DNA of 64,000 nucleotides from Cliona cf. orientalis. Its lineage: Eukaryota; Porifera; Demospongiae; Clionaida; Clionaidae. The translations under genes were made by a program, and so were the position numbers. The notes beneath the pieces were generated by a model. That model made no database searches and was not told where the DNA came from. It was given only the letters and a program-made list of their open reading frames with translations. The stretch spans positions 8,577,501 through 8,641,500 of the forward strand of contig OZ005699.1 of assembly GCA_963930775.1 (NCBI GenBank), written 5' to 3'. Positions 7,623 to 35,336 of the stretch are shown in pieces (the stretch's first letter is position 1; each line of letters opens with the position of its first letter).

Positions 7623-7975
7623 AACTAGAGCTCTATAGAGCACATACCCCGCGTGCTGCAGGGTCGATCATTGGATGTAGAGAGCTCGAACTCCATGCAT
7701 GTCCATTGACGACCTTTACCTACATATTGTGCCAGGTAATGCGCATGAGCACATGGTGGGTAGTGTTGATAGGCGTGGTCAACAAAATGCAGTATTTGCG
7801 ACGATCATGGACCTTGCCAAACGATTCGAAGCACAATGAAGCCAATTTTTCGACGATATCGACGGATATGCTATACTTACGAGTCGCTCAGACGCCCGGT
7901 AGATTTTCAGATCTGGCGATTTTCGATGACAGCGATTACTTTACCCCTTGCGCATGCGCGCGGGATAATTATGGG
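7623..7975. repeat. Dispersed repeat, AGAGCTCTATAGAGC family
   Basis: Starts with AACTAGAGCTCTATAGAGC followed by ACATACCCCGCG. It contains a TTGACGACCTTTACC block and ends in a GC-rich terminus, ACCCCTTGCGCATGCGCGC. Further copies lie at 9461-9811 (inverted), 11033-11434, 21083-21786, 33223-33545 and about 55600-55895 (inverted). No coding capacity; class unknown, probably a non-autonomous DNA transposon. Confidence 0.65.
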
Positions 7976-10420: not shown

Positions 10421-10474
10421 GTCACCAAATAGCTAGGCTTTGCCCTGTGGTTTAAATACCCACCTACAGTACAG
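10421..10474 (+). promoter_or_regulatory. Candidate core promoter of gene B
   Basis: A ~50-nt block containing GCCCTGTGGTTTAAATAC then CACCTACAGTACA lies just upstream of the gene B start. It is nearly identical to 28503-28552 upstream of gene D, although the sequence around it differs. TTTAAATA could act as a TATA element. The ATG is only about 40 nt further on, so the 5' UTR would be very short if this is right. Promoter role is inference. Confidence 0.4.
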
Positions 10475-13400: not shown

Positions 13401-16400
13401 CTGTGAATTAGCAGATGAATTGCAAATGTCAGGTATAGAATTAATGTGTGACTATTGATTATGAGTATGGTAATCATAATATTATTATGAATATTGTTTT
13501 CATAGATCAAAACGATCCATCACAAGTGCCCCCTGCTCCTGAAGGACCTCCGTGGCTAATCCCTGTGCAGGATTCTGAGATAGCTGGACAGTTTATTATT
13601 GATTTATCGGGCACCATTCCCCAACGTCATAATTGTGAGTCTACCGTTGAGAATGCTGCACAGCCTGTGGTGTTTCCATTCAAATTTGAAAATGTGAACT
13701 CACATAATATTTCATTCAATTGGACAGTAGGTTGAGCCAAATGATGTACATGCTAGCCAGTGGATGCAGCTTGTATCGATTACATTATGCAGGCATCTCC
13801 TTTTGCACATTTAAATCTCACTGGTTATGCTTGTCAAGAACTTCAAGTATCTTTTGCAGTTGGTAATATCGCAGGACTTTCTGAATTCTCTCCAAAAACA
13901 ACCATCAAAATTAACCCTGACAAGAGTTAGCACACTTAAATTTGTATGCATCAATGTCAATTTCTGAGCTCACACATATCAGTGTGGATTGCATTGAATT
14001 TCTATACTATTTCAGATGAAATGATGATTTCCACAGTCAATCCACCATTAAGCTTAACAGTTGAGGAACTAATAGACACACAGATTGAATTCTTTGGTCA
14101 TGTGATCCTCAATGTTTCATGGATTGGACCCTATGGTATGCATGTGTGTATATGTGCATGCTTACATGATTGTGTGTACATGTAGTTACTGATGTAACAG
14201 TGGAGACTGGTGGGACTAGCTCATAATTGCCAACCCTGTAAGAAATGGATGTGGGACACGCGTGCGAAGCACGCATGAAAATTTTGGGGCCACGCCCATT
14301 TTTGCATTGCCACACCCTCTATTTCGGCAACATCCGCGATCACGCACAAAAACACCTACCACGCCCACTAAATCTCGAGATATACGGACAAAAACAGGGT
14401 AGTATACCAAGGTTAGGCTTGTGCCACACCCCTTTTGTGTATTATACGTAGTGGCGTACTATGATGTCAGCGGATGGGGAATTCGGGACAAGAGCGGGAC
14501 ATACCGTATTTCCTCGAAATCTCGCCGCACCTCGAAATCCCGCCGCCCTCGAAATGTCGCCGCATCTATCTGCCATCTCGTCCCAATAAACGCCACCCTC
14601 GAAATCTCGCCGCATGGTAAGGGGTCGATAGAAATTTCCGTATGCGCAGGGACATTTTACGTGCATACAACTAGGCTTATTATTGAAGCTGTGTACGTGG
14701 CGTGGGTATCGATCTCTGTAGACGCCGCCCTCGAAATCTAGCCGCCCTCGAATTGTCGCCGCACCAAACGGAGCCTTGAAATAAAATCTCGCCGCGGCGA
14801 GATTTCGAGGAAATACGGTATCCAATATTTTCGGAACTGTCCCGCCGGTTTCGGGACAGTTGGCAACTATGCTAGCTGTATGGTTACTAAATTAATGAGA
14901 CAGTAGTGACTGATAGGACTGTATAGTTAATGATGTGACACAATTATATTATGTACATCATAGCATAGTAGTAAATGAATATAACAGTATAAAGAAAATG
15001 ATATTCATTAATTGTGACGCTTACATGAAGTATTATCCTATTTTTTATTATCACAGATGAATCAGATGTGTATTTTGATCACTTCATTGTTACTGTTGCT
15101 CCACATTACGAGGCATCTAGGTGTGGTTGTAACACTTGGAGCAGGACTATCCCCCGTGTAAGTTCATATATAAATTAAATATTATACTATGCTACTTTCA
15201 GACAAAGTGAAAATTAATATTGTGGTAAATGAACATCTTTGCATGGGTATTGATCAAGAAATCTACAGAGTGATCCAGCCGGTACTAAATTAATGATTAT
15301 GAGATGGTATAAATAATATGATTGGAATCAGGGTGGATTTTTCAGAACCATCTCCTTGCATTTGTTAGCTGTAGATATAAATTAAATTTCCTATTGTAGG
15401 AGCAAAATGCTGTACTTGTTGAAGCTACTTCAAATGTCTCCTTGCCGTTGATGTCATGCCAATATATCATTCAGGTGAATATTATTAATTTTGGCACTGT
15501 CATTTACTCAATCTGCATTGATTTCAATAGGTACGTGCTACTGGACCTTATGGTACAAGCTATCCCCTAACGAGTATACATAATGTAAACACCACATGTA
15601 AGTCTTGAATAATAATTACACTTAGCTATAGTCTATTGCCAATGGATGTATCAATGATCTGTAATGGGTCATTAACTTACTACAAATCATTGTGGAGAGG
15701 AGGATCACATTGTACAGCTCTTTTTTTAACTATCATAATATTATTAAATTTTGTGTATCAGTTGATCCAAATAGCATCAATTTTGAATGCCAAAGACTAT
15801 GGCAAATTCGTGGATTCTCATTTAACCTAACCTGGATTCTTCCTGATCAGCTTCACCTTGGCAATGCAATTAATGAATTTGTGGTGCTTCTCAAGCTGAT
15901 TGATGGTACTGATAACATATCAGTACTAGTAGATAACAGCACCATTCCATTTCAGGACCAGAAAGTATTGTGTTCATAATTCATATTGAGATTCTAATTA
16001 ATATTCTACTTTTTAAGGAGTCTCAGAACTTTTCAGTGATATTCAATTCCAGTAATCAGTTTATAAATGCTTCTTTTCACTTATTTGAGGTAATTTTTTG
16101 ACAATTTGGGCAAAAGTGTAGTGTTAACAATATTGAATACTACAACTGCATACTATTTTGCAGATGTATGTGAACTGGAGCAGTGATATTCCCTACATTC
16201 CACCGAGATATTTCTATGACTGCATGATAAGCACCGTATCCCCCCGGCCGTATCCTGTTGAAGATTTTATGGTCACCAGCTCATGCTCTATTAATGACTC
16301 TACAATTATTTTATTCATAGACTGGTTTCCTCCCTCTATAATCAATGGAGTACTGGAGTCCTATGATATATGCCTTGGTAATGTTCCTCTGGAGCCCAGC

Positions 16401-19400
16401 GAAGAAATATCCAATAAGAGTCATAATTGCCACAACTCAAAGCAAAATGTATGCTAGTTGACCATGGGTGTCCATTATTGACACTATAATAACCAGTATA
16501 TACATTCAAATGATTACTTAGAATCAAGTGCACAGTTATAATATTATGATTGTCACCAAAAGCAGTTATCCTCTCTACATCCAAGTAAGCTGAATTTTCT
16601 CTAGGTATACAAGATTAGTAATACACATCTTGTTGATTTTTGTTCAAAGATCCGTGCCAATAATTTCCATATTTCCGGAAATTGGAGTGAACCCTATGTT
16701 ATTGGTGAGCTTCATAAAATTATTCTCACACTGTCATGTACTTAATTGGTAGTAAATTAAATACACTAGTACATATTAGTAGTTGCTACTTCAATCACCT
16801 TCATTACCTTGTGAGCTATTGCTGCACGCATGTTAATTGGTGGCTAATATACCCTATAGAAATATTGGCGGGAATTAAATTTTGCGGTTGAGCCCAAAAT
16901 CGAATATAGGCGGATTTAAATTTGGCGGTTCGGTACGGGATCGCCATACGTATACATGCGAATAGGAAATTTTGGCGGATTTTAACTTAGTGGTTGTAAT
17001 ATAGACCACCAAACCGCCAGATTTTCCGGCCATACGGTAATATTAGTTTTCATGTAGACTCCATATGCAATGAATCCTCCACAACGAGTAGTAATGAAAC
17101 TTCCACTAGTACAAGCAGTGGTCCTGATGAATCCTCTACTACAAGCAGTGGTGCTAATGAATCCTCGACTACCAGCAGTGGTACTGATGAATCCCCCACT
17201 GCCAGCAGTGATACCAATGAATCCTCCACCACCAGCAGTGGTACTGATGAATCCCCCACTGCCAGCAGAGTTCCTGACGAATCCTTCATTATGAATAAGT
17301 GTGCTGTTTCTAATAACTCTATGAGCATGGTTGAACTGGAGCAACGCTGCTTCCTCTCCTGTGATGAGGTATGTGATTCACTATTATAATTATGTGACTG
17401 GCTATGAGAAAAGGGACCACTAGCTAAAATGGAAATTTTCGTACTTGACAACTGCTTTTTAGCATGGAACTAATGGTGCAAGTTTTATGAAAGGATATTG
17501 ACCACAAATGGAGTTATGCATAACCATTAAAATTTTATGCACTGGGTAGATAGCTAATCTTCGTGACACTACCTCTATGTACAACACCATGCAACAACAA
17601 TTTCAACATAATTATCATCAATCACAATAATATTATTATTATTTATGACAATTAGTACATACATGCCAGCCCCATCTATAGGCGATCTACAATAAAATTA
17701 ATGGTTCTATTCAATTTTCCCTTTTTAATTATAAAGTGATAGGACTGAGCAAGTTCATGTATAATAATTAAATTATGTGACTTATTTCATCTTGTCTCTT
17801 CATCTCTTCATATCATTCATGACATTGTGTCAATTAAAAAATCTATGGGATCCATGCAGACACTTTCTTTTTCCAAATATTATTTATTAGCTATAATGTC
17901 ATGATTTTATAAACAGCATCCATAATATTATGTATTAGACCAAATTTAAATCAGCTTCTTTCTTTGTTTCTTTAGTCAGACTCTGGATCATTGAATTATA
18001 GTCTTTCTAACTATTGGCCATATGTGAATGTTGATGAAACTGATTGTCAAACCTCCCGCGATGTAAGTTTCATTATTGTGCTTAATCATAGTTACTATAG
18101 CTAACTTTTAGTTATGTATAATATTTGTGTAGCTCTATCAGTGTACACTTGGTTGTGTACAGTATTTTAGAGAACCAGAGTCATTCTGTTATTTCGACTG
18201 TGTAAGTAATTATTTAGTACGTCTGTAACCGTTGTATAATATTTTTAGTGCAAAGTAACTGTTTACATTATGTACAGCAAGATACTTGTGAAAAATTTAT
18301 CAAGACACTAAAATGTGATGGTCTAACTCCTCTGTGCCACCCATGGATTAGTCAGCAGTGCACGGGCACAGTTGAATGTCATCGAAATGTGTTTCTCGTA
18401 AATAATGTTTGATACGCCCTTGCATTAAGAATTCTTATAATTATTTTTAATAAATACAATATACAGAATAGAAATCCCTGTAGACGTGGCTGTGAATTAG
18501 GAGACATATTGCAATTGTCAGGTATAGAATTAATGTGTGACTATTACGTGTTACAGTATGATAATCATGATATTTTCACAGATCAAAACAATCCATCACA
18601 AGTGCCCCCTGCTCCCGAAGGACCTCCATGGCTAATCCCAGTGCAGGATTCTGAGATAGCTGGACAGTTTATTATTGATTTATCGGGCACCATTCCCCAA
18701 CGTCATACTTGTGAGTCTACCGTTGAGAATGCTGCACAGCCTGTGGTGTTTCTATTCAAATTTGAAGATATGAACTCACATAATATTTCATTCAACTGGA
18801 CTGTAGGTTGAGCTAAATGATGTATGATGTACATGCTAGCCAGTGGATGCAGCTTGTATATTACATTATGCAGGCGACTCCTTTTGCACATTTAAATCTC
18901 ACTGGTTATGCTTGTCAAAAACTTCAAGTATCTTTTGCAGTTGGCAATATAGCAGGAATTTCTGAATTTTCTCCAACAGTAACCATTCAAGTTAACATGA
19001 GTTAGCACCATCAAGCAAAATTTAATTTTATGCATACATGTATTCTGCACAGCTAGTAATTACATTACTTTTTCAGACAAAACGATTTCCACATTCAATC
19101 CGCCATCGAGTTTAACAGTTGAGGAACTAGTAGATACACGGGTTGGATTCTTTGGTCATGTGATTCTCAATGTTTCATGGATTGAATCTCATAGTACGAA
19201 TGCATAATAATATTATTATTATATTAGTTATATGCCTATTGTATTAGTGTAAGTGTGTGTTTAGGATGCATAATACAATAATATAATTATTGCTTGATAT
19301 ACAGATGAATCAGATGTGTATTTTGATCACTTCATTGTTACTATTGCTCCACATTATGAGGCAACTAGGTGTGGTTGCAACATTTGGAGCAGGACTATTC

Positions 19401-22400
19401 CCCGTGTAAGTTCATCAGCTAATTTCAGTGCATGCACAACATTGAGCTGTATATTGGATTCCACATAGAGATAAGGCTATAAATTATTGTATATATAAAC
19501 ATAGACCTTTGGTATTGGTGTTAATTGAAAAAATCAATTAACATCTGGTAAAATAAGAATGATTTTTGGCGATGTAATTGAACAAAAGAGGACTTTTTGG
19601 AACTGCCTCCTTGCATCCTTAAAGTATAATTTTCCCAAACATTTCTTTTATATTATAGGAACAAAATGCTGTTGCTGTTGAAGGTACTGCGAGGAGTGTG
19701 TCTCTACCATTGATGTCATGCCAATATATCATTCAGGTGAATATTATTAATTTTGGTTCTATAATTTACACATCATTGATTTAAATAGGTACGTGCTACT
19801 GGTCCTTATGGTACAAGCCATCCCCTAACGAATATACATGATGTGAAAACTTCATGTAAGTCTTGATAATTATACTTTGTCTTTCAATCTATGATGATAG
19901 TAGACATATTGACAAAATTATTACTGGAGGGGTACATTAATAGTTATCACACAATGATTTTGTGTATCAGTTGATCCAAATAGCATCAAATTTGAATGTC
20001 AAAGACTGTGGCAACTTTGTGGATTCTCATTCAACCTAACTTGGATTCTTCCTGATCAGCTTCGCCTTGGCAATGCTATTGATGAATTTGTGGTGCTTCT
20101 CCAGCTGATTGATGGTACTGATGACATATCAATACCAATAGATAACAGCACCATTCCATTTCAGGACCAGAAGGTATCATACTCATATTAATTAACAAAG
20201 ATCAAATTGAGATTGTAATAATTATTCTTGAAAAGAAAATCTTTTCAGTGATATTCGATTTCAGTAATCATTCTGTAAATGCTTCCTTTCATTCATTGGA
20301 GGTAAATATTATCATGTGATACTTTGGGCAAAGTAATGTATTAGTATGCTATTTTGCAGACATATGTGAACTGGAATAATGATATTCCCTACATTCCACC
20401 AAGACACGTCTATGACTGCATGATAAGCACTGTATCCCCCCGGCCGTACCCTGTTGTAGACCTTACGGTCACCAGCTCATGCTCCATTAATAACTCTACA
20501 ATAATTGTATGCATAGACTGGTTTCCTCCCTCTATAATCAATGGAGTACTGGAGTCCTATGATATATGCCTCGGGAATGTGCCTCTGGAGCCCAGTGAAG
20601 AGATATCCAATGAGAGTCATGACTGCCGCAACTCAAAGCAAAATGTTAGTTAACCATGCATATGGGTGCAAATTGTTGATACTATCATACATACTATACT
20701 TAGAAACAAACTAACAGTTATATGATTGTAACCAAAAGCATTTATCCTCTCAATATCCAAGTAAGCTGAATTTTATATAATGTACATAGGTACAAGATTA
20801 GTAATATGTATTATGTTTATTTTTGCTTAAAGATCCGTGCCAATAATTTTCATATTTCCGGAAATTGGAGTGAACCCTATGTTATTGGTGAGTAATAGCT
20901 TCATAAAGAGGATTACTCTCACACTATTGTACAGTAGGCACAACAAGCATACTCAGCTTAACCTTATAGACACAAAAATCAAATCAATGGACGCAAAAGA
21001 AGAGTTACATAACAAACTCAAAACACCTACATGCATGCACATGCAATCAACCAAAACCTACTAAGTAACGCAACCATATATCAACTAGAGCTCTCTAGAG
21101 CCCAAAACCCTCGGTGCATTGTATGGCACTTGTCTCACAATTAGGCAAGAATACAATATTAGGCGATGCATATGCAAACTGCATTGACTTCCTAGGTTAG
21201 CACAAGTAGTTGCACATGCATTAATCCTCCTATTTTGATGAATGAGGGGTATGGCAGCAATCTATGGGCTGACTAAGGTACAAACTCCTTATCTAGTCTT
21301 GTCCCAAGTTTGGGATGACTGTAGCTTGTGTAGAGTATATTATCCATCTCTGAAAACTGCGAGCTTGATAATGACACATGCTTTGCTGGGCGAACCATAG
21401 ATGCTAGAAGTATTCTAGACTGAGAGCGTAGCTATCTATATGTCCCGAGATCCCGCCCTCGTAACCCTCGTGTGCGCATGCATATAATGGGCCTATGCCA
21501 TATATAGCGTGAGACACATAACGTTCTATTCAAGTTATACGTAAAGTCATAGCAGAGTGCTGGGCAGAAGGAAGTCAAGAAGCTTAGAATCAGCAAATGA
21601 CGCCAAAACTGGCCAACAAAGCGTTTTCTACGAAATCCACACAAATCATGCGTTTGGAACGCCATAAGGAATGTTATAACACCGCAGTTTGGACTCGCAA
21701 ACGAGGTATGTAGCAGTTAGCGTGGTAATAGACAGACAGACACACAGAATGACTATAGTAACCCTCGCGCATGCGCCGAGGCTTAATGAGCCATGAAATT
21801 ATTCACATGCATAATTACATGTAACTGCATGCGCATGCGTGAGAGTGTGGTAGCTAATTAGATGATTCCTAACCACTAGAGTAGCTGCTACTTCAATCAC
21901 CCACAGCCTTGCATGTGAGCCGTAATAATAAAAAATTATTACCGTATTTATGCGAATAGAATGCAAGCTAAAAAATAACGAATTTAATTCAAGTTAGCGC
22001 AATTTTCTGGTAAAGGTCGTCACACTCTACATTATGAGAACGCAAATTTTCTTGCGCTAATTAGATCTTGCATTTTTTTGCATAAACATGGTATGCATTA
22101 ATTGCCACATGCATGATAGTTGCTAGCTATTATTAATAACTTTTCATATAGACTTACCAGTATTAATGTGCAATGAATCCTCCACAATGAATATTGATGA
22201 ATCCTCCGCTATACATGGTAAGTAGCTGGAGAGACATTAACAGGAGATGCAAACTTTGAATCCATGCATGTCAGGATGTTACATATTTATTATAATTAAC
22301 TATAATTCATACAGTTAGCATCATAGCAGGATCTCTGACTGTTCTGGCACTATTATGCCTGGGTACAGTAACTGCATTATCTTTCTTTGTTTTCTGCAAG

Positions 22401-23145
22401 CGAAAAAGAAGTAAGCTGTTGCAGATAACAACACAGGTACATACAAGTTGTATATTAAATAATATACGTAATTATCAAGCTTTATAGCAGTATAGCCATG
22501 CACAGTCACTGTGATATCCATAAGTACGATTACCGTATAGCCGGAAAATTTGGCGGGGAATGAAATTTGGTAGTTTGGTGGTCTATATTACAACCACCAA
22601 ATTACTCGCACATATTATACATGCATAATATGGCGATCCCGTACCGAACCACCATATTTAAATCTGTCAATATTCTTGCAATAGCGATTTTGGGTTCAAC
22701 CGCCAATTTAATTCCCGCCTGAGAATATTTCCAGCTAGTATATATACGGTATTAATAGGAACCATATATTAATTTATTATGATTCAATATTCCAGGATAC
22801 TGTAAAGACGTATCTATCAAGATCTGCTACTGAGGATCACACTCAATTCCGTACATCAACTAGCTATTATCATAATAGATGTTGACCTTTATAATAATAT
22901 TTATTATTTCAGAGAAATGTCCCCATGATACTACAAATGGACATGGAGGTGCTGAAAAGGATCAGTCTAAAACGGATCAAACAATGCTACGCCCTTTAAG
23001 CATGAATAATGTTGTTATTGCTGATGATCAAGCTGGCAACCCATACGTTGATCTACCGTCAAAAGTTGGCACTACAGCTACTGCTTCTTTCATGTTGCCA
23101 CCTGGAGGTATTGAAGCAGATAAACCCACAAAAACAGAGACTTAA
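10491..23145 (+). CDS. Gene B: kinase-less transmembrane receptor with duplicated ectodomain
   Basis: Thirty-six GT-AG exons: 10491-10682, 12930-13010, 13065-13136, 13201-13320, 13378-13432, 13506-13726, 13793-13925, 14016-14135, 15057-15157, 15400-15474, 15531-15597, 15762-15964, 16018-16089, 16164-16448, 16522-16584, 16650-16704, 17058-17368, 17976-18062, 18133-18201, 18278-18397, 18467-18521, 18582-18802, 18874-19000, 19077-19193, 19305-19405, 19659-19736, 19789-19855, 19971-20173, 20236-20301, 20360-20644, 20704-20760, 20833-20887, 22152-22217, 22315-22436, 22796-22850, 22913-23145. They sum to 4410 nt (1469 aa and stop) with no frame break. The start MLSIFAAF gives a signal peptide. Each module has a 15-Cys domain with a Frizzled-CRD-like end (PCRRGCE) and FN3-like domains ending GNWSEP. 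The exon at 17058-17368 joins module 1 to the Cys-domain start of module 2. The TM (22315-22436) is followed by CKRKR. The two tail exons encode about 95 residues with NPYVDLPS and no kinase. Likely a decoy or adaptor-like receptor (inference). The acceptor at 20235 and the two tail exons are the least certain parts. Confidence 0.85.
11033..11434. repeat. AGAGCTCTATAGAGC-family repeat in gene B intron 1
   Basis: Same ends as 7623-7975: AACTAGAGCTCTATAGAGC at the left, ACCCCTTGCGCATGTGTGC at the right. Between them, a (GACGAC)n-rich stretch near 11355-11380. Confidence 0.6.
12100..12892 (-). mobile_element. Tigger/pogo-like non-autonomous element, truncated copy
   Basis: Reverse-orientation copy of the element at 48863-49751: shared blocks include CCATGTCCTTT/TGTCTGTCAGTT text, the CTCCTTCC block and a terminal stretch ending TCGGAGGCTCGACTG followed by TA. 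The far end (left here) lacks the matching terminus, so it is truncated. It lies inside gene B intron 1 (10683-12929). Confidence 0.6.
14226..14870. mobile_element. Nested TIR elements in gene B intron 8
   Basis: The outer element has TTGCCAAC at the left and GTTGGCAA at the right. Inside it, 14502-14820 is a second element with near-perfect 27-bp inverted ends (TACCGTATTTCCTCGAAATC then TCGCCGC). This inner element also contains at least five diverged copies of CCTCGAAATCTCGCCGC, so the terminus itself has been internally amplified. No ORF. Confidence 0.75.
16850..17040. repeat. MITE-like repeat with GGCGG/CCGCC words, copy 1
   Basis: Contains TTGGCGGGAATTAAATTTTG at one end and CCGCCAGATTTTCCGGC then CATACGGTAAT at the other. 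It sits in the intron just before the stalk exon 17058-17368 of gene B. An inverted copy occupies 22535-22750. Confidence 0.6.
17128..17286 (+). repeat. 30-bp coding minisatellite (Ser/Thr stalk)
   Basis: Five and a half units of 30 bp inside the gene B exon 17058-17368. Each unit encodes ten residues of the type DESSTTSSGT, DESPTASSDT or NESSTTSSGT. Likely a heavily O-glycosylated rigid spacer between the two ectodomain modules. The second module's stalk exon (22152-22217) has only two diverged NESS/DESS units. Confidence 0.85.
20888..22151. other. Gene B intron 32 with repeats
   Basis: Holds an AGAGCTCT-type element at 21083-21786 (ends AACTAGAGCTCTCTAGAGC and ACCCTCGCGCATGCGCC). It also holds a short TIR element at about 21949-22093 with ACCGTATTTATGCGAAT against TTGCATAAACATGGT. 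No coding evidence. Confidence 0.55.
22535..22752. repeat. MITE-like repeat with GGCGG/CCGCC words, copy 2 (inverted)
   Basis: Inverted counterpart of 16850-17040, with ACCGTATAGCCGGAAAATTT at its left end. It lies between the transmembrane exon and the first tail exon of gene B. Confidence 0.6.
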
Positions 23146-23837
23146 TAACAAGTATTAAAGTGTGCAACTATTCTTAATCTTAACAAAGGGAAGAATTATT
23201 AGTTAGCTATTAACCTAGGCTTTAACTATAATTATTACAAATTCACTTGGTAATAATAATTTTGGCAACAATCTATAGAACACTTTTTTGGCCTTAGGAT
23301 ATAAATTTTTTATTTGTTGTCGATCTTTCAAATTAATTTGGTGCAAGTGAGCACACCTGCTTATTATAAGTTATCCAATCATTACAACATGCAAGAAACG
23401 AGTAACTAGTACACATAGAGCTAGCTAGCTAGATTACGGTTTTGTTATCCATACAGGGACTGATCCAGTGTATATAGATCTACTGACATAGTACAATACA
23501 TGTTACTTTGACTGTCACTATAATTGTGCTATAACATCCTGGTTAATTTTGCTATGATTATAAAGCTGCATAATAATATATAATAATAATATCTATCTTG
23601 TGCATGCATGCATTGTACTTTTATTCATCTAATTCTGACTTAATTAATGGGATATATAACGTTATAAAATAAATATTGCATTCACTGATGATTTGGGATT
23701 TGAATCACCATGGCACTGTTAAAAATGGGGTGTACATGCAGTGACACAGCCTCATTCCCAGGCCCTATATATATTCAAGACTTATGAGGCATCTAATTTA
23801 GTTTCAAAAAAGTTCAGGGTTTGCCATGGAAGCTACA
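23146..23837. other. 3' flank of gene B
   Basis: AT-rich, non-coding, with TAGCTAGC runs and ATAATAATA microsatellites. Nothing recognisable before the kinase relic. Confidence 0.4.
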
Positions 23838-24627
23838 ATGAAGTACTGGGATCACTTTTTAGCTTTCAAATCATGCTATGGTCATAATTATATTATAGTA
23901 GGGGTGGGGTGGGGAGGGAAGCTATAGGGTTTCCTGGGTAACCAAGAAGCAATTATAAACTATGCCCCCTGCTCCCCGAGGCTAGCTGAAATTCATTGAT
24001 CGAGATCTTGCATGCTTGTAGGTCCTAATTATAAGGAATATCCTAATATTATTGATGATGGAAAAGTGCTATCTTGGGATATCGGCCTGTGAAATGGATG
24101 AAATTTATGTTCAGAAGCGGACAGGTCGTGTTCCACTGAAGTGGATGGCCATTGAGTCCATCATTGCTAGAGAGTTCACATTAGCTTCAGATATCTGGTC
24201 CTATGGTGTTGTCCTCTGGGAAATAGGCACTCTGGGTATGTGTGCAATCGAAACTTCAATCTACATGTACATTGTGGAAAAATGAGAACACTAACTTTAT
24301 ATAATATAATGCTATGTTAGGTAGTTTTCCTTATCCAAGTATATTCAAAATGAAGATCTCCTTCCAATGCTCAGGAGTGGGTATCGAATGGAGAAGCCAG
24401 ACAACTGCTCCCCTGAAGTGTAAGTCACTGCAATAAAGCATTATAGCTACAACTGAAAAGCTACTAGCCTGATCTAAGTAAACTAGGTCTAGAAATGTTT
24501 ACATTCTTGTAGGTATGAAATAATGAGGATGTGTTGGGTAGAGGATCCATGGAAACGACCTACTTTCTCGGATCTGAGAAGCAAATTCGATGCCATGCTA
24601 CTCGCTGAGAGAAACAATGAATATATC

Positions 24628-25437
24628 TTTTATTTATTTATTTATAATAATTTCTGCTCAAAAAACAGAACAGTGGTTAACATGATTAGCTGGAGATAGC
24701 TAAAACTAGCATGTAACCTATGGAGGGAGTGCAAATAAGAATGAGTTAAAAATTAAAATGCTGACTGAGGCCTGACTTAAAAGAATTGAGGGAGAGAGAT
24801 GACAGAAGTGATGAGGGAAGAGAGTTCCAGAGAGCAATTATAGTTTTTGGGAAGAAAGAATTATAAAACTGGTTAGTTCTAGCCTGGATGTTGACTAACT
24901 GCAGGGGATTGGTGTACCTGTTGACATAAACAATATCTCTTTGCTGGATGGGATTCTCAGGAAAGTCACACAAATTGTTTACAATTTTGAATAGATGTTC
25001 CAGCCTAGCATTAGATCGTCTCAGAGTAAGGGGAGGTATCATCGACCGTGAATACAATTGACTATGGTCAAGAGACCAGTTTTTCAAGCACATACGCAGA
25101 GTGAATCGCTGGACTTTCTCCAGGGCCTCTATGTCCTTGGAGAGGTGTGGATCCCAGACAATTGCACAATATTCCAGATGTGGTCTGATAAATGACTTAT
25201 ATAGTTGGAGGAGAGTGGCTGTGTTAGCATGCTTGTAAAAACGACGGTAAAGTAACCCAATAAGCTGTCTGGCTTTGGCACATAAGTGGGATACATGAAG
25301 AGACCATGAAAGATCTTGAGTTAGTTTAACTCCCAAATATCTTACACTTGTCACACGCTGCAATGGTGTTCCAGACACATAGAGAATGGGTGGAGGAAGG
25401 CTGGAGGTTCTCTTCCTTGATACCAACATGTAGCAGC
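24628..25437 (-). mobile_element. 5'-truncated LINE, RT C-terminal part
   Basis: The minus-strand frame (25437 to 24746) encodes the end of a non-LTR reverse transcriptase of CR1/L2/Jockey-like type. Marks: YLGVKLTQDLSWSLHV, LYKSFIRPHLEYC, and the C-terminal IIALWNSLPSSL. The 3' tail is a (TAAA)n-type microsatellite at 24628-24650. Target-site duplication ATATC at 24623-24627 and 25438-25442, splitting the NEYIDL codons of the relic tail exon. The intact frame suggests a fairly recent insertion. Confidence 0.85.
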
Positions 25438-26021
25438 ATATCGATCTCCGTATCAACAACGACAAGCCTTACTATAGGCTGGACACCGCAGCTACGCTTC
25501 AAGCAACCGCTAACAGCAGCAGCATGCCACAGCAACAACAACAAGCATCCTCCCACGCTGGCGTAACTCGTCAAGGTAGCTTCCTTCTCTCTGAGTTTGC
25601 CGCCAAAGAGCCCTCTCCAAAGCCATTGCCAACTCCTGACTTGTCACCAAGTCGTAAATCACAGATCAGCGGTGGTGGCACTTCTGAATCAGCTCAATTC
25701 AGTCCTGGTCGAAAGCCAGGTATGAGTCTGGCTACACCCTCGCATTCCATCGGTGCTCACTCTTACAGTGGAGGTGATCAGCAAGCAAGTGCACTAGACT
25801 CTGAAAGAAGAGGCCTGGAAAGGGGGAGAGATCGTACACCACTCGAGAATGGACGTCCTTCCAGCTTGCTTCTTCCTCAGGAACGAGAGAGGAGAGAGAA
25901 ACAGAAGCAGAACCCTTACGTCGATGAGCCTTCGAGAGCGGCTGCTACTACGCTGGCTCTTCCTAACAGCAATGGTGTCCATACGAGGCTAGGGAGTGAT
26001 GGAGCTATTGAGATGAGTCAC

Positions 26022-27814
26022 TTTTTTTTTTTTTTTTCAAGGGGACCACACACTAAGCAGAAAAAAAATGGTCCAAAAACCACCACACAGTTGAGCTGGA
26101 TGCATAGTAGAGCCATACAATGCAAGCAGGCATCCTAATAGCCATATACACAATATTCGGTAAAGGGTCGTCAACGTACCCCGCGCGCCCGTAATTTTTT
26201 TTATGGGCAAACATTGCTTCCTATACAAACATATGGGTAAACTTTCAAGGACCGTAACTTTAATACTAAGGCGTGAATCAAAATTCTTTCAGGTCAAATC
26301 TCTAGTTTCGACCCATTCTGCGTGCCGGTGCAAAAATTATGTCTCCAAGTGCTCCCAAACCCCCCATGAATTAGATTATTTAATTATTTAATTATTTAAA
26401 TTTGCTTTTTTTTTTCTACTTCTTCTTCTACTTAGTGTGTAATTTCTCTATGACAATTCTGCATGAAATGCAAGGATACACAAGATAGTGATACAACACT
26501 AATGATGAAATGTATACCCTGACTATAATGACTAAGTAATAAAAGTAAGATGTTATTATATTATACTATTAATGTTAACTATTACTAGGAATAATATAAC
26601 TTGAAAGATTACGCTTAAATGATTGGACAGATGGAGCAGAGACAACTGACTTGGGAAGTGAATTCCATAATGATATAATAGAGGGGAAGAAGGAGTGATG
26701 ATATGTGTTGGTACGAGCAAAGGGTTGAATATAGGTATTCCGATTGCTTGAGCGAGTGTTATGGTCACACAAACGAGGGACAATGATGCCATCAGGAACA
26801 GTCATTAGGCCATTTGCAGCTTTGTAGAGGTATAAAAGACTTAAGATTTTTCTACGATCTGAGAGCTCAGGTATCCCGCTTTCACGGAGAAGTTCACTGT
26901 AGCTACAGTTCCATTTCTTTAGACAGACCTTTAGAGCAAATTTTTGCACCAATTCAAGTTTTTGCATATCTTTATGTAAATAGGGGCTCCACACCTGCAC
27001 AGCATACTCAAGATGGGGACGGATAAAGCTTAGATAGAGTTGGAGCAGTGCCCTTGAACTTGACCATTTATAAAAACGTCTATACAGCATACCAATCAAT
27101 TGCCTTGTTTTGCTAGTAATCCTATCAATGTGAGGAGACCAAGATAAATCGTCACAGATAATTACTCCAAGGTACTTATAGCTTTATACTCTCTCCATCA
27201 GTTGATTGTGAAGCATCATTGCCTGACATGGGACAGCTCTAGATTTTTGTTTAGATACTACCATATATTTGCATTTACTAGCATTCAAAGTCAAATTGTT
27301 GTTATCCACCCAGCAAGCAAAGGTATCAATATCATTCTGTAGTTGGATGTAATCAAAGGTTGAGGTGATTATTCGGTAAAAGAGAGTGTCATCAGCAAAG
27401 AGATTCATTACGTTTCCAGTTGACAGCGGCTCATGTTCAGCATCATTAATGTAAATGAGAAATAGCAATGGTCCCAACACTGATCCTTGTGGTACTCCGG
27501 ATATAACATCTGTGGTAGGAGACCTTTCACCATTAAGAATCACATACTGCTTCCTGTTGCTCAGATAAAAAGTGATCCATCTCAGAATATATGGATTTAG
27601 GCCAATAACTGTGAGTTTTTCAATAAGTTTTCTATGAGGGACCGAGTCAAAGGCCTTCTTCAGGTCAAAAAATATGGCACATACTTCGTTTCCCTTATCG
27701 ATCTCCGACGCCCAGGTGTTATATACGTCCAAGAGAGCAGCGGTTGTTGATTTTTTTGGTTGGAATCCCCACTGATGTAGGCTAATTGGAGAATACATTT
27801 CTAAGTGTGTGGCT
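26022..27814 (-). mobile_element. 5'-truncated LINE with reverse transcriptase
   Basis: Minus-strand frame from 27814 to 26575 with RT marks [33 protein letters not shown] and LFADDT, then IRPHLEYAVQVWSP. One in-frame TAA at 27184-27186 breaks it just before SYKYLGV. Probable target-site duplication AGTCAC at 26016-26021 and 27815-27820. The 3' end seems to be the T-run at 26022 (a poly-A tail on the minus strand), with 26022-26550 as 3' UTR or a further repeat. The part 26022-26410 recurs at 52140-52660, so an older repeat may have been carried along. Confidence 0.8.
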
Positions 27815-28502
27815 AGTCACCTTGGAAGGAGCATGCAGTAACAGTGTGTCAATTAAGGGGAGAGTGCCCTGAGATACAGATTACTGGTGAAGACTAATGA
27901 AACGAGTATGTGTGTGTGGAACAATTTTAATTAGTACCTATAAATTAAAGCAATGATCATTGCATGGTTTTATTATTCTAGATATTGCATCGTACGTTAT
28001 TAACAGCTATGACTTCTCTCATCATGCATATTATACAATGTCATGCAGTAGCAGTTATGAATCCCCTGTAATTAAAATTAATGATGATGATTTGGAACAA
28101 TGAACGTGGATGTTCTCAGGCATAAAATTAATTTACAATGGGAGATATGCGGTAAAGGAATGCCTATAAGCTTAATTGTAAGTCTGTAGCAGCGTGGGTA
28201 CAAGGCTTTCTCAGCTCAGGCTCGGCCCAAATAGGCCCTGCATGACACTAGTTATTAAATAATATAATATTAGCTATTACTAATGTGGTAAAAGGATGCC
28301 AATGAAATTGTACTAAATCTATAGCATATGTACATTCATAAGGTCTATACTAGTGGCTCTGGAGCTTAGATTCCATTCTGGAGGCTTGATTCCATTCACG
28401 ATTCTCATTCCCAGACCCCATCACAAAAGGAGCAGGGGGGCTGGAGAGTTTTATACAAATTATTGTTGCTCCCTGGAGGGGGGGGGCAGTCATGATCAGG
28501 AA

Positions 28503-28552
28503 GTCAACCAAATAGGCTTCGCCCTGTGGTTTAAATACTCACCTACAGTACA
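28503..28552 (+). promoter_or_regulatory. Candidate core promoter of gene D
   Basis: Near-identical to 10421-10474 (GCCCTGTGGTTTAAATAC, CACCTACAGTACA). Here the ATG is about 100 nt further downstream, which gives room for a normal 5' UTR. A second TATA-like word, TATATAAAT, lies at about 28626. Role is inference from conservation. Confidence 0.4.
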
Positions 28553-28999
28553 ATTTCAACCAATAAGTGGTTGAACATTTCAGCCAACCATTAGTGCTAC
28601 TAATTATTTCATATAATATACCTGCTTATATAAATCGTGTTCTCAGCTATCATGCTATCAATATTTACTGCCTTCATGACGATTATGATTGCTGGGAAGT
28701 TTGTGGCCATCACCAGCATTTTGAATGATACTTCCATGACAGAACAAGTTTGTGCAATTTCTAATAATTCCTTGAGCATGGTAGAACTGGAGCAACGCTG
28801 CTTCCTCTCCTGTGATGAGGTATGTGATTCACTATACTACTAATAATATAGCTATTATAGCTCACTAATTAACTTTATTATCATAAGAGTATAATATCAT
28901 ATTCTATAATACCATGAGGAAGATCATGTTAATTGCTGCATAATCATGATACTTGCTGCTGCCTATAATGGGAAATGTAATAAGTTGCAGACATGCAAG

Positions 29000-30800
29000 C
29001 ACCAGAAATTCTCTGGCTAATTATCACCAATTGGATGAAACTTGCTACAACGAGTTGGATACCATTATAATAGTACAATATTATAATAATTATAATAAAC
29101 TAGTAATAATAATTATATTATAGCTATTATGTAATGGGCTGGCTGCAGCTGACCATTTGGGGTTATTTTGCATTATGTACCTTGCTGTATGGAGTAATGT
29201 TATTATGACATTGTATACTATAATAGTATAGTACATACTCACATTTGTTCCGGTTGTATCACTGATACAAGTATACTATAGTATTTCGATGTAGAAAGCA
29301 AGTTGGATTGTTGTTTCACGAAACAATGCAGAACCCTCACACGACGTTGTGCGTGACTGTGTGCATGCATGCCTGTTCAATATCAGTTCTCTTCAGCCTA
29401 AGTCAGTGCATGATCTAGGAATTTGGGGGAAGGCACCTGCATGGTATATCACTAGTCTATATAAACTGAAAGCCTCTGTGACATACCGGTACTTCAACTT
29501 CATAAATCGATGTACAGAGATCTTAATTAGATTATTGGTCTCTTTATTTCATTCATATTCCCTTTTATTCTAAAATTAGCCATTTCACAGCATTAAATTT
29601 TTTAAAAATCGTTTATTTCTTTAGTATGGATGCTGGACAAATGATAATAAAGTGATAGTAATTCAACAAAATTAATTGTCAAAATGGGAATGATTCTTCT
29701 CAATTCTTCAGGAACACTACCGGTATAATCTAAGAGAATACAAAGAATACCTTAAAATATTAGTATAGCACCTAAAAAATCAACAATTTCACAAAAGGAA
29801 ACACAGTTAAAGACATTCATTAGTTTTCATACTCCATGTCCTCCCTTAAGCGTCACTGCTTGAAATATCAGACAGTACAGTAGAATTTAAGTGCCAAGAC
29901 AGCTCAGAATTACAGCCTTAACACTACATAGAGTAAACGATCAATTGTCGGACACACCAATTATTCGGACACCAATATCGGGAGAATGGAAATAGCTACG
30001 ATCGTCGATCTTACGCAAGGATGTAGCCCCACCAACGTAATGCTTGCAAATCGAATGGGAGCTTGGAGCGAAATTTAACATTGAATGTTGAACTATCCAA
30101 TCATTGAAAAGATATGCACTTATTTGATCATGTTGGAGCAATTAGATTGTTCCGAGATAATAGTCCCCATAACAACGGTATCCTGTCCAGGTACACGACA
30201 GTTGAGTCCAACTTAACGTGAGTAACATGTTTGTGTCGACATGACAGGGTATACATCCATTAATTTAGCTAGACACCTGTGATTAGATCGTACAATGATA
30301 ATGAGTAAGTAGATAACAATTATTATCAATTTTGTGTCACTTTGAGTACAATCATACTATTAAGGACCATCCATGGTAACTGTTCTGGCCCTTTGAAGTT
30401 TCCCATAATGTTTGTATAGGGAATCCATGCATTTGCAATGTTTTCCGCCCACGCACTACGTGAGGGGCGGGGCTTCGCGCGCACATAAACGTGACGACCT
30501 TCACCAGCTGTGCCAAAATTGAAGTTTAGGTGAAACTCACTGGAGTTTACAGCATCTCCTGTTTGCTGCTATAGCGGTTCAGCTATTATATGATAATTAA
30601 TTAAAAAAGATTATCAAAATTGCGGGATCTCTTAGCATGCCCGCTAAAGAAAATTGATCAAATTATTTGTCAATTAACTTGAAAGGAAAGGTCCATGGGA
30701 TCGATCCAGGCTCTTTCTCGTTTCCAAAATTTATTAGGTATAACATAATATATTATAACACAGGAGCTTATGGATGCACAGTGCTAGGGTATATAGTCAT
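29000..30800. other. Gene D intron 1, first part
   Basis: Mostly AT-rich filler. At about 30370-30500 there is a reverse copy of the block with TTCCGCCCACGC and CTACGTGAGGGGCGGGGC also found near 26200 and 52230-52640. No exons seen. Confidence 0.5.
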
Positions 30801-30803
30801 ATT

Positions 30804-31085
30804 AGGCCAGGCAAACTGAATTCGCAGTTTATCGTCACCGCCCGCATGGATTTTCAGATTTTCTCAAAATTTTCATATTTCAGATTGTATGCAGCAACTA
30901 TATGGCACTTTGGCCCCGCCCCCTCGAGCGCTGCAATTGAAGGGCGTGGTCTCGGCGATCGCGAGTTCGAACCTAGCATTTCTCGCACTCTTTTACTAGT
31001 TTGAAATCTGAATAATGACCGCCCGCCCGCATGCAAAATCGAAAAGTCTGTGACGATAAACTGTGAATTTAGTTTGCCTCGCCTT
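30804..31085. repeat. Inverted-repeat element in gene D intron 1
   Basis: The left arm around GGCAAACTGAATTCGCAGTT and TATCGTCAC pairs with the right arm GTGACGATAAACTGTGAATT then TAGTTTGCC. The central part contains GACCGCCCGCCCGCATG-type words shared with 50740-50810. MITE-like, no ORF. Confidence 0.7.
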
Positions 31086-31109
31086 AAGGCTCCTGATAAA
31101 GTTTAATAG

Positions 31110-31300
31110 CTATAAGGAGGGGTTGCTGTTGAGCGTTAACTTAAAACGTAGTTGGAAAGATCTGCGAAGCAGAATGTTTCGGACCGTGGTCCTTCATCAG
31201 CTGCAAATGCACACTAGACTGATACAAAACTGAGATAATAAATATCGCAGATCTTTCCAACTACGTTTAATAATGCCCCTCCTTATCAACAACAACGTAG
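31110..31300 (-). mobile_element. Fold-back element with hammerhead-like core
   Basis: Arms CGTAGTTGGAAAGATCTGCG (from 31147) and CGCAGATCTTTCCAACTACG (31246-31265) are inverted, with an outer AAGGAGGGG/CCCCTCCTT pair. On the minus strand, 31200-31176 reads CTGATGA, then a self-complementary GGACCACGGTCC, then GAAAC, which is the hammerhead ribozyme core layout. Hammerheads are known from Penelope-like elements and retrozymes. One extra A after CTGATGA, and unclear stems I and III, leave activity open. Confidence 0.5.
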
Positions 31301-31824
31301 TCACGTTCAATAAGTTTAATAGCATTCACATAATACCTGACAGATTTTAAACTAGCTTCTTCTTTGTTTCTTTAGTCATACTCTGGAATATTGAATTATA
31401 GTCTTTCTAACTATTGGCCATATGTGAATGTTAATGAAACTGATTGTCAAACCTCCCGCGATGTAAGTGTTATTATTGTGCTTAATCATAGTAGCTAACT
31501 GTTAGTTATGTATAATATTTTATAGCTCTATCAGTGTACACTTGGTTGTGTACAGTATTACAATAGTGAATCAGAATTTTCCTGTCTTTTCGACTGTGTA
31601 AGTAATTATTTAGTATGTATATAACAGTTGGTGCAAAGTAACTGTTTACATTATGTACAGCGAGATACTTGTGAAACATTTATCAAGACACTAAAGTGTG
31701 ATGGTCTAACTCCTCTGTGCCACCCATGGATTAGTCAACAGTGCACGGGCACACTTGAATGTCATAAAAATATATTTCTCGTAAATAATGTTTGATATGC
31801 CCTTACATTAAGAATTATACATAG

Positions 31825-32060
31825 GGCCATATAAAATAACTTACTTGATTCTCATCCCCGCCCGTCCCAATTTTTACAGGCCGTCTCTACGCTATCGCGC
31901 GTGCGCAGTAGCGACCCTTTACCAAATATTTCGAAAATCTGGTCCAGATACTAATCTTTCTAGTGTCCTAATGAGTAAAAAATAAAAATAAAATGCCTCC
32001 TCCCGCCCCTATTTTTTGGAAAAAGGTGGATGAAAATCAAGTAAGTTATTTTATATGGCC
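31825..32060. mobile_element. 236-bp MITE in gene D intron 4
   Basis: Inverted ends GGCCATATAAAATAACTTAC and its complement at 32041-32060, extending through TTGATT..CATCC on both sides. Flanked by TAG on each side as a possible target duplication. Absent from the equivalent introns of gene B (13321-13377, 18398-18466), so it inserted after the copies separated. Confidence 0.85.
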
Positions 32061-32699
32061 TAGCTTATAGTTATTTAAATACAATATGCAGAATAGAAAT
32101 CCCTGTAGACGTGGCTGCGAATTAGGCAAATTGCAAATATCAGGTATAGAATTAATGCGTGACTATTATGATTGTGTATGTACAATAATCATATGAATTT
32201 TGTTTTCACAGATCAAAACAATCCATCACAAGTGCCCCATGCTCCTGAAGGACCTCCATGGCTAATCCCTGTGCAGGATTCGGAGATAGCTGGACAGTTT
32301 ATTGTTGATTTATCAGGCGCTATTCCCCAACATCACAGTTGTGAGTCAATTGAGAATGCCACACTGCCTGTGGTGTTTCTATTCAAATTTGAAGATATGC
32401 ACTCACATAATATTTCCTTCAATTGGACAGTAGGTTGAGCAAGCTAAATTATTTTAAAATGATGTACATGCTAGCCAGTGGATGCAGCTTGTATAATACA
32501 TTATGCAGGCGACTCCTTTTGCACGTTTAAATCTCACTGGTTATGCTTGTCAAACTGAACTTCAAGTATCTTTTGCAGTTGGTAATGTCGCAGGACTTTC
32601 TGAATTCTCTCCAACAATAACCATTAAAATTAAGAGTGATAATAGTAAGTTTGTTTGCATGCTAGTTTCTGTATATGTATTCTGCCAAGCTCACATAGT

Positions 32700-32990
32700 G
32701 AATACGTATACATTCTATACTCCTCACAGTCAATCCTACGGTGGCCGAGAGGGACACTGGTACAGCGGCCCGAGCCACCGTGAGGTGCCCAAGGTCCGGC
32801 GCCGCTGTTCGACTGCGGCTGGCCGCCGCGGCTAACTGCCATCGAGCCGTGCCTCGGCCGCTCACGCCAAATCCTTGAAGTTGTTATTTAGAAAAAAAAA
32901 ATTAATGTGTGGAAGCCGAAAGGAGCCGAGAGGGGAGAGGGGCAATCCGATCGAATCCGATACTTTCGCCGATCTATCACAATCATTACA
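32700..32990. other. GC-rich island in gene D intron 7
   Basis: About 160 bp of strongly GC-rich sequence (32725-32875), followed by a purine-rich block, in an otherwise AT-rich intron. It contains an inverted pair ACGGTGGC/GCCACCGT about 25 nt apart. Open frames exist on both strands (32503-32865), but there is no recognisable domain, and no rRNA or tRNA fold is evident by eye. Origin unknown. Confidence 0.5.
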
Positions 32991-33222
32991 ATGTACAATG
33001 TCATGTACTGATAATAAATCTACCACAATCACTAGCTACTGTAACAATGTACAATGTCATGTTGTACTTAGACCATACACTAGACTAGACTTGGTACTAA
33101 GCTAGATAATTTCATTATGCTTAATAGCTAGTGATCATGATAATAGTTTATCCCTTACTTTAGTTCTGTGGCATAGCTAGTGACTTTAATTTGTCCTGCC
33201 ACAGAATAGTTCAGTAATAAGT

Positions 33223-33545
33223 GTATTACTCCGCGCGTCCCATAGCGCGCATGCGCAAGGGGGAAAGTAATAGGTCGTGTCGTTATCCTTGTCGTTGTCG
33301 TGAGCACAAAAATCGCCATATCTCGAAATTTAGGCATCTAAGCGACTCATAAGCACAACAAATCAATCGAATTCGGCGAAAAACTGGCTTCAGTGTGCGT
33401 CAAATCGATGGATACGGTCCACGGGCGTCACAAATAGTGCCTATTTGATGGCTAACGTAGCCACACCTATTGACAGTGCCTACAGTACTCAATGCATAAT
33501 GCATGCCCATTGTGTTTTCTGCTCATGCGCATAACTAAGTAGCCA
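33223..33545. repeat. AGAGCTCTATAGAGC-family repeat, partial
   Basis: Has the GC-rich end ATAGCGCGCATGCGCAAGG and the internal ATCGCCATATCTCGAAATTT block in the same order as 9461-9811. The far AGAGCTC terminus is missing; a LINE fragment follows. Confidence 0.5.
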
Positions 33546-33915
33546 AGAAAATTCAGAACCATTGCCAGTAATTTCCGGAGTTCCTCAAGGGAGCATCCTG
33601 GGACCATTGCTATTTCTTATCTACAAAAATGAGCTACCTGAACAAGTGGACTACACATCATGCTACCTGTTTGCAGACGACACCAAACTTCTAAAAGCTG
33701 TCATGGGTGCATGTAAATGATGAATCCCAGCTCCAGCAGGATTTAGACACCGCAAATAGATGGTGCAATAAATGGAAATAAATGCAGTTCAATGAGGCTG
33801 GCTCTATCTAGCCACTCCACACATCAAATGGGTACCTACTCTATCAGCAACAGAGATCTTGAAACAACTCGTTCACGAGACCTGAGAGTAGTGGTGCAGA
33901 AAGATCTGTTATGGA
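33546..33915 (+). mobile_element. LINE reverse-transcriptase fragment
   Basis: Plus-strand remnant with [19 protein letters not shown] and LFADDTKLL (33568-33700), then a frameshift into DESQLQQDLDTANRW and stops. Dead fragment of a CR1/L2/Jockey-like LINE, a different copy from the two at 24.6-27.8 kb. It abuts the RTK exon fragment at 33916. Confidence 0.8.
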
Positions 33916-34345
33916 CGGATCTGCCGAGGACCTCTACATTCAAGTAAGCTTAAAAATTCTATCGTATTTACAATTGAGAATTGTCTCCATGATACTGATG
34001 CGTGCACACAATAATAGTTTGTTCCAGGAAATTGGAGTAACCCTGTTATTCTCTTGAGAGGTATGCCTCTTACTTCATTAATTGCAGGGGGATCTTACTC
34101 CTTTACATGTATTTGTCAGTATGATAGCTTGCCTTTGCATGATTATTAAAACTAATGTGTAAACCTTAATTTCATTCCGTGGTAGCAGCTGTAGTGAGTA
34201 CAGGAGGTAATTTATTTAAGGTGCATGGTAGAGATTTGATAATTAGTCATAGATGAAACTCAAACTTAAGCAAACAAAGATTCTCTGTGGATCCTGCGAT
34301 GACCTGTATTAAGAGAATCTTCATTACGTAGCCTCGAACCCAGGC
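33916..34345 (+). pseudogene. Orphan exon fragment of an A-type RTK
   Basis: Matches gene A 3370-3770: the end of the large FN3 exon (ATTCAA then GTAAGC), the intron, and the short exon with TGCGTGCACACAA and AATTGGAGTAACCCTG, followed by the start of the next intron. It sits upstream of gene D exon 8, out of order, so it is a leftover of another copy or of unequal exchange. Small indels break its frame. Confidence 0.75.
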
Positions 34346-34846
34346 TCACTTCCTGCTAAATTATACTACAGTTGTAGTAGGGAGGTGGGGTGGGGTGGGA
34401 TGATTTCCTGGCAACCAAGAAACAATTAAACTATGCTTCCTGAAATTCTGACTGCACTGGGTACGAGGCTACCTTAATTCACCATTCACTATTTTTATCG
34501 TTAGTTGTTAGCTATTAAATTTTGTTTTTTGTTGTTTGCAGTGTAACGATCTATTCCAAATCCACCAACCGACCTTCAAATCTCGGATGATATTGACACA
34601 CAAGTTGGATTTTTTGGACATGCAATTCTCAACATCTCCTGGCAGAGACCACAAAGTATATAATATGCATTTATAATACAGTATCACTACTAGCTACTAT
34701 TGTTAGCTCTTTACTCTTACACACTGCAGATAGTGTATTTTTGGAAAACTTTACCGTCAGTACGTATATCTCCAACCATGGACGATACTGCCACAGTGTG
34801 TGGTAGTGACACCTTGAATATCACAGTATCATCAGTAAGTTGGATG

Positions 34847-35336
34847 TATAGCAGTGGCGTAGGAAGATGTTTTTGAGCAGGGGGGCTGAAAGTAAGCAGG
34901 TGAAGACTTGCTTTATGCGCGCGTAGCGCGCGAAAGCTAGGGGGGTCTGGGGGCATGCTCCCCCAGGAAAATTTTGGAGTTTTAGACCTTCTGAGAGCTT
35001 TTCTAGTGCATTTTCGAGGACATTCTGGACTCTTAGCTTGTCACATGTGAACACAGATCAGTAGTGACTACTGATCTGTATTCACATGTGACAATTATTG
35101 ATATCTACACACCGTGGGGCTAAGATACACCACAATCATGAATAATTCAACCCTGATTGTGGCAACAGATGAAAAAGAAAAGTGCAAACCTCAGAGGGTG
35201 AGCCCCACCCCCTGGCTTGTAGCTACAGCAGTCTAAAAATCAGAGGGGCTCTGCCCCCCCCCCCCCCCAATCTTATGACTGGGGGGGGGGGGGGCAATTG
35301 CCCCCTCCCCAGCCCCCCTGGTTCTTACGCCAGTGT
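34847..35336. mobile_element. TIR element in gene D intron 9, absent in gene A
   Basis: Ends CAGTGGCGTAGGAA and CTTACGCCAGTG are inverted. The flanks (T)GTATAG occur on both sides, while gene A has a single copy at the matching site (about 499-510). The interior has a C-run/G-run hairpin (35254-35294) and GGGGGCATGCTCCCCC. hAT-like by its target duplication length, which is inference. Confidence 0.8.

Follow-up and report, generated by a model that had tools for sequence, protein, structure and literature searches.

When a receptor gene ends without a kinase and a broken kinase lies directly behind it, has the receptor lost that kinase, or do the two stem from different genes? The question is raised by a window of 64,000 bases from the sponge Cliona cf. 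orientalis (contig OZ005699.1, C11 in array coordinates, positions 8577501-8641500), in which gene B (10491-23145) is followed by a kinase relic (23986-28138) lying between genes B and C. A sequence-only reading of the window had taken gene B for a converted receptor tyrosine kinase and the relic for its own dead kinase. We favour the first of these proposals and not the second. With a probability of about 0.62, gene B would be a functional kinase-free type I receptor that arose within a sponge array of tandem receptor tyrosine kinase genes, while the relic is most simply explained as the remainder of another gene.

The region analysed comprised the window with 100 kb upstream and 80 kb downstream (joined, 244 kb without any N), and genome searches covered 216.8 Mb in 149 contigs. 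Positions follow the window numbering, which becomes negative upstream of base 1. Exon searches place gene B, among the matches listed, in an extended series of FN3-type receptor tyrosine kinase genes, for the most part on the plus strand.

Gene B and its tail

The model of gene B has 36 exons (4410 bases, 1469 amino acids) and 35 GT-AG introns in a single frame. It encodes two tandem FN3-like ectodomains with a Ser/Thr repeat exon between them, a transmembrane (TM) exon and a tail of 95 residues, with 38 N-x-S/T sequons overall and two tail tyrosines. Signal peptide and TM segment (both called by eye), ectodomain, intact frame and absence of the kinase, the five features looked for in a kinase-free decoy receptor, are all present. 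As this model encodes no kinase, gene B in this form is not itself a receptor tyrosine kinase; its descent from one is indicated by ectodomain and tail, both homologous to those of kinase-bearing neighbours.

Ectodomain unit 1 (10491-16704, plus strand) consists of 16 phase-consistent GT-AG exons for the signal peptide, a Cys-rich part and FN3-like modules. Pfam, searched at E up to 1, gave one fn3 match here (E 8.8e-5; 23.1 bits, below the 25-bit cut-off) and no Ig domain in unit 1, unit 2 being scanned in part; no family was found with the tail or with FN3a and FN4 of unit 2, and linker plus Cys-rich part gave a single chance-level match (E 0.27). Unit 2 (17976-20887, plus strand) has 15 exons, all 15 of which match unit 1 (552 codons, dN 0.066, synonymous divergence dS 0.172, dN/dS ratio w 0.386, bootstrap 0.25-0.55). 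Between the units lies a fusion exon (17058-17368, plus strand), in which a linker rich in Ser and Thr, built on a 30-base repeat present in about 5.9 copies, continues in frame into the 3' part of a first exon. In the 5' part, 17063-17113 align with 22166-22215 of the link exon that precedes the TM exon (22152-22217, plus strand). The 3' part matches exon 1 of gene B (10546-10682), and the repeat sits between both parts. This make-up is the expected remnant of a deletion from one gene's link exon to the next gene's first exon, which would also have taken out the TM and kinase of the first gene; a search for kinase remnants between the units found none that was convincing (best E 0.032). A short repeat occurs in inverted copies (75%) in the intron before the fusion exon (16859-17024) and in the intron after the TM exon (22563-22731).

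The TM exon (22315-22436, plus strand) ends in phase 0, like that of gene E. It had been proposed to splice into two short exons ending at 23145, and the junctions 22436/22796 and 22850/22913 are indeed the exact splice sites of the model. They define a 55-nt cytoplasmic exon (22796-22850, plus strand) and a last exon of 233 nt including the stop (22913-23145, plus strand; ATTAAA at 23154). All three exons have GT-AG borders and compatible phases, and skipping of the 55-nt exon, with use of an acceptor at 22915, likewise preserves the frame. No kinase exon was detected in 22437-23985, where no match to 15 kinase exons of four array genes went below E 0.11; lower values (0.033-0.058) all fall at 23986-24030, the start of the relic. 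A genome search with TM and tail of gene B at E up to 10 returned three matches, each of them gene B itself.

The last exon encodes a receptor-kinase C-terminal tail, and the NPYVDLPS that the sequence-only reading had singled out is a retained element of it. The best match is the putative last exon of gene E, as read from the DNA (z 8.1, none of 2000 shuffles equal), a relationship that also beats 200 of 200 shuffles at the DNA level. The tails of two downstream genes (L033 and L032; z 6.1 and 5.8) and the end of the gene A tail (z 5.7) were not equalled in 1000 shuffles each, and for four longer tails (z 4.2 to 4.8) 1 or 2 of 1000 shuffles were as good. With a hidden Markov model of the tails, gene B scored E 1.1e-4, while the best among 2000 shuffles reached 0.23; among other open reading frames (ORFs) of the window, only the A, D and relic tails and the ORF of gene B's own exon exceeded the shuffles. 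The conserved order is R-P-L/V-S, then NPYVD.PS, then LP. In the 244-kb region, with 487,996 residues in six frames, the motif [NS].YV[DE].P occurs 14 times, without exception on the plus strand and in tails: once in gene B and 13 times in kinase-gene tails (counting the relic and the putative last exon of gene E). Last exons were read for 13 kinase genes, not counting the relic; 11 of these genes have the motif (gene E in a separate exon), and the gene at -83845 and a truncated gene at 101687 lack it. Tail and kinase end occupy one exon in A, D and most other genes read. In gene E, as in gene B, the tail seems to form a final exon of its own, set off by a phase-1 intron (65060-65496), and a tail intron common to the two genes is likely.

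Kinship and constraint

Gene B is closest in kind to gene E. Unit 2 and E differ by a dS of 0.84 (14 of 15 exons; w 0.345, 0.26-0.45), unit 2 and A by 1.8 (7 of 15 exons alignable). A tree from six concatenated exons sets B1, B2 and E apart from the nine other rows with support 98.5/99; it has 12 rows, with four P genes represented by five exons and with C, D and the copies G and H described below left out. Between genes B and C dS is 0.13-0.16 (6 of 15 exons alignable, 221 codons).

Neither disabling lesions nor, apart from the less clear comparison with C, signs of neutral evolution, as expected of a pseudogene, were found in gene B. We nevertheless consider the possibility of a young pseudogene that is still unbroken but was never expressed or has ceased to be. 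It would fit a gene whose units differ by a dS of only 0.17, whose unit 1 does not have w clearly below 1 when compared with C, and whose neighbour copy D already has an in-frame stop. We think it unlikely, as all 36 exons and 70 splice dinucleotides are intact and the interval of w between the units reaches no higher than 0.55. In simulations of neutral drift, moreover, none of 500 runs stayed free of stops at a divergence d of 0.086 (13.6 stops on average), none of 500 at 0.05 and 11 of 500 at 0.02.

Several points weigh against gene B as a functional kinase-free receptor of B/E descent. Constraint is not clear in the comparison with C (w 0.49, 0.29-0.97, for unit 2; 0.59, 0.31-1.13, for unit 1), and the units were perhaps constrained in separate genes before the fusion, so that neither w nor the simulation is in itself proof of constraint on the present gene. 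A single-exon FN4 tree did not join B with E; being too weak (71/81), it was replaced by the six-exon concatenation. The tail of gene B shows no significant similarity to that of the gene at -34371 (z 0.7, 253 of 1000 shuffles as good). Its last acceptor lies about 36 bases off the position that aligns with the gene E acceptor, and the gene E donor (GTTAAT) is weak, so that the shared tail intron is not certain. The donor of the 55-nt exon (TCC/GTACAT) is weak as well. No source of this exon was detected, and two candidates were rejected, the juxtamembrane exon of gene E (141 of 200 shuffles as good) and its last kinase exon (44 of 200). Finally, the TM exon of gene B may splice into the kinase exons of gene D (39928 on, also phase 0).

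The kinase relic and its neighbours

The relic is damaged much as had been described, with kinase and tail exons in order, indels and missing N-lobe exons. Its kinase part (23986-24627, plus strand) comprises part of the catalytic-loop exon, with indels from about 23986, the next exon, frameshifted by a 2-base insertion, and the last kinase exon; no N-lobe exon was detected in the relic. Of the two LINE (long interspersed nuclear element) insertions proposed, that at 26021-27814 (minus strand) is confirmed by reverse transcriptase pieces (RVT_1, E 2.2e-27) and has a poly-T end and AGTCAC at both ends. The other, at 24628-25437 (minus strand; ATATC at both ends, minus-strand ORF 24749-25459), has no Pfam match; it is LINE-like, its reverse-strand ORF resembling by eye the C-terminal part of the element at 26021-27814. 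The relic tail (25438-26020, plus strand) has an open reading frame and is 96% identical to gene A, and the 3' flank (27815-28138, plus strand), where the homology ends at about 28138, is a copy of gene A 7346-7623 (75%). By Blastn, 24034-24627, 25438-26020 and 27815-28138 match gene A 6192-7623 at 87, 96 and 75%. The extent of this homology, like the doubling of the ectodomain in gene B, goes beyond the sequence-only reading.

It is the origin of this relic that speaks against its having belonged to gene B. Relic and gene A differ by a dS of 0.099 in the tail (191 codons), 0.092 in the last kinase exon (38 codons) and 0.124 in a further comparison (47 codons); A and D differ by 0.134 over 251 codons, 0.163 over 86 codons, and 0.089 over 169 codons of ectodomain. 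In a kinase tree of 11 rows the relic joins A and D with support 99/98, whereas gene B groups with E in the ectodomain tree. The junction from the relic to C repeats that from A to B (27815-28138 corresponds to 7346-7623, 28513-28552 to 10434-10473, and 28646 on to 10485 on), as expected if the relic is the 3' end of another A-type gene. Divergence, tree placement and junction copy together indicate an A-type origin. Most simply, the relic would be an A-type gene that came to lie between B and C by a block duplication and has since been shortened and hit by two retroelements.

The contrary view, that relic and gene B were once one gene and that gene B took up its tail exons at 22796-23145 from another source, can point to the right place and order of the relic. 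It can also point to the chimeric nature of array genes, which makes an A-type kinase behind a B-type ectodomain possible. We regard it as improbable, since not only do trees, dS and the copied junction conflict with it, but the supposedly recruited tail exon of gene B is itself a kinase-gene tail, nearest to gene E, and the relic carries its own, distinct tail exon of A-type. Very improbable, finally, is the idea that gene B belongs to a longer kinase gene as one of its transcripts, with a TM exon that can also splice over 17 kb to the juxtamembrane exon of gene D and the short tail as the alternative: phase 0 on both sides would allow this, and gene D has open kinase exons behind a second FN3-like exon with a stop at 34544-34546, but such a splice must skip the relic, gene C and the TM exon of gene D, and gene B has its own stop with ATTAAA nine bases on.

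For gene B as a kinase-free receptor we propose the following history. Adjacent A- and B-type genes would have been duplicated as a block. Two B-type units would have fused exon to exon with loss of everything between them, giving the doubled ectodomain, and the juxtamembrane and kinase exons would have been deleted in a B/E-type gene, leaving a small exon to bridge TM exon and tail exon; these two steps carry no fixed order. The A-type gene between B and C would have been cut to the relic separately. No trace of gene B's own lost kinase was found in the searches described above.

Among the neighbours, gene A ends at 7418; its kinase (PF07714, E 2.6e-76) has its best PDB matches in chains named EGFR, RET and FGFR. 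Gene C (28652-32633) lies ahead of gene D (34543-42218), and the stretch 28652-42218 is a chimera of two array types, with a B-type N-terminus (C) ahead of the A-type D and a reverse-transcriptase-like fragment (by eye) at the seam, near 33535-33717. The stop in D is a TAA close behind the acceptor, where gene A has GAA; gene D may be dead, or may start elsewhere. Gene E starts at 45825 or 48340 and, provided that its putative last exon is correct, stops at about 65669. A 279-base stretch with part of its first exon occurs twice (45871-46147 and 48293-48571, 97.8% identical).

Other kinase-free copies and known systems

Gene B is not the only copy without a kinase. Its FN4 exon had 23 matches in the genome at E up to 1, of which 18 were at E < 1e-7 (17 in the array and one at C11:2.22 Mb; the match at 8676857 has an internal stop), and a single kinase exon had 29 at E up to 0.001, all of these counts being lower bounds. 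A kinase-exon match follows within 5 kb downstream on the same strand for 13 of the 18 FN4 exons. The other five belong to four genes, namely B with its two units, F (8561373), G (8502270, minus strand) and H (2224024, minus strand). The last three were assessed on exon cores rather than whole gene models, with the joints of G and H placed by eye.

Copy F (L020, C11:8557.9-8562.7 kb) is a parallel case of kinase loss with the TM kept, the kinase being gone between TM exon and tail. Its seven exon cores have no stops (dS 0.05 and w 0.36, 0.14-0.88, against neighbour Y). Tail remnants begin 75 bases past the TM match and end in GIEIKITSEKN, and a further in-frame deletion of 180 bases has removed NPYVDEPS. 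The tail acceptor is not clear, as the nearest AG runs directly into a stop. Copy G (L014, C11:8501.9-8507.1 kb, minus strand) is an inverted ectodomain copy with six stop-free exon cores (dS 0.12 and w 0.38, 0.21-0.63, against its relative Z). It is joined in phase 1 to a downstream module with an ephrin-receptor-like piece (19.7 bits, short of the cut-off at 23.1 bits) and an fn3 domain (39.3 bits). As one core matched over 60 of 67 residues only and lacks the donor that Z has, copy G may be damaged. Copy H (L030/L031, C11 about 2222595-2227804, minus strand) is an A-type ectodomain some 6.4 Mb from the array, again with six stop-free cores (dS 0.115 and w 0.33, 0.18-0.57, against A). Two exons follow in matching phase, the first a sushi exon (30.5 bits) and the second sushi-like by eye without a Pfam stretch, and then come a TM exon (by eye) and tail tyrosines YEEI and YEHI.

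The array may be a paired-receptor system, in which kinase-free siblings with matching ectodomains arose repeatedly from one cluster of kinase-bearing receptors by different routes: internal deletion of the kinase (B, F), or phase-1 joining to sushi-like exons, TM and tyrosine tail (H) or to an ephrin-receptor-like/FN3 module (G). This is a tentative proposal, and rather doubtful at present. Vertebrate immune receptors include activating/decoy pairs; if the proposal is true, the array would resemble them in an animal without lymphocytes.

For gene B itself, the part of the sequence-only reading that holds is that it derives from a kinase-bearing receptor, is now kinase-free and has an open, homologous tail with the tyrosine motif of the array. 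It is most likely a membrane ligand trap or a kinase-free partner. With a doubled ectodomain and no kinase, it should associate with ligand or sibling receptors without generating a signal of its own; two covalently linked ectodomains without a kinase look like a natural single-chain ligand trap. We envisage a membrane protein that would bind the ligands or partners of its kinase-bearing siblings through both ectodomains and so damp or gate their signal. Beside an active sibling, the NPYVDLPS tyrosine could be phosphorylated and then dock the usual adaptor. Retention of a motif common to most array tails read suggests that the tail can still be a substrate of a sibling kinase and hold the same adaptor. 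Between decoy and docking receptor the sequence cannot decide; the architecture makes the choice directly testable.

Kinase-free relatives of receptor kinases are already known from vertebrates and nematodes; the insulin-receptor decoys of insects and the IRLD genes of C. elegans are kinase-free duplicates from a family other than that of gene B. What the sponge array adds is several stages side by side: open kinase genes, two kinase-cut copies (the tail tyrosine kept in one and lost in the other), two in which other membrane-protein parts have been joined on behind the ectodomain, and one decaying copy. Among the matches listed for open-licence papers, judged by title and start of abstract, there was no report of kinase-free receptors from sponge kinase arrays; the excerpt of one paper mentions sponge-specific kinase families and has nothing on kinase-free copies (PMC8662651).

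Two known receptors invite comparison. FGFRL1, the kinase-free fifth FGF receptor, has a receptor-kinase-family ectodomain, one TM and a short tail and, according to a review, was first called a decoy; its tail is barely conserved apart from a few motifs, one of them tyrosine-based, and its tyrosine motif YxxLYxxI acts in trafficking (PMC12026108). Gene B resembles it in that its ectodomain comes from a receptor kinase family, that there is a single TM and no kinase, and that the short tail carries a tyrosine motif. By the Pfam scans of unit 1 and of part of unit 2, it is not a member of the FGFRL1 family, whose ectodomain is described as of Ig type (PMC3820611). The ectodomain of FGFRL1 is not doubled and its motif is one of trafficking, whereas that of gene B is FN3-like and doubled, and its tail motif is the array's own. 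DAF-2B, a truncated insulin receptor of C. elegans, is described as a product of alternative splicing that is likely secreted and sequesters ligand (PMC7041946). It shares with gene B a ligand-binding part, putative in gene B, without the signalling part, and differs in being a spliced form, likely secreted; gene B stands as a gene of its own and has a TM exon. By analogy, FGFRL1 is the nearest parallel to gene B in design and DAF-2B the nearest in effect.

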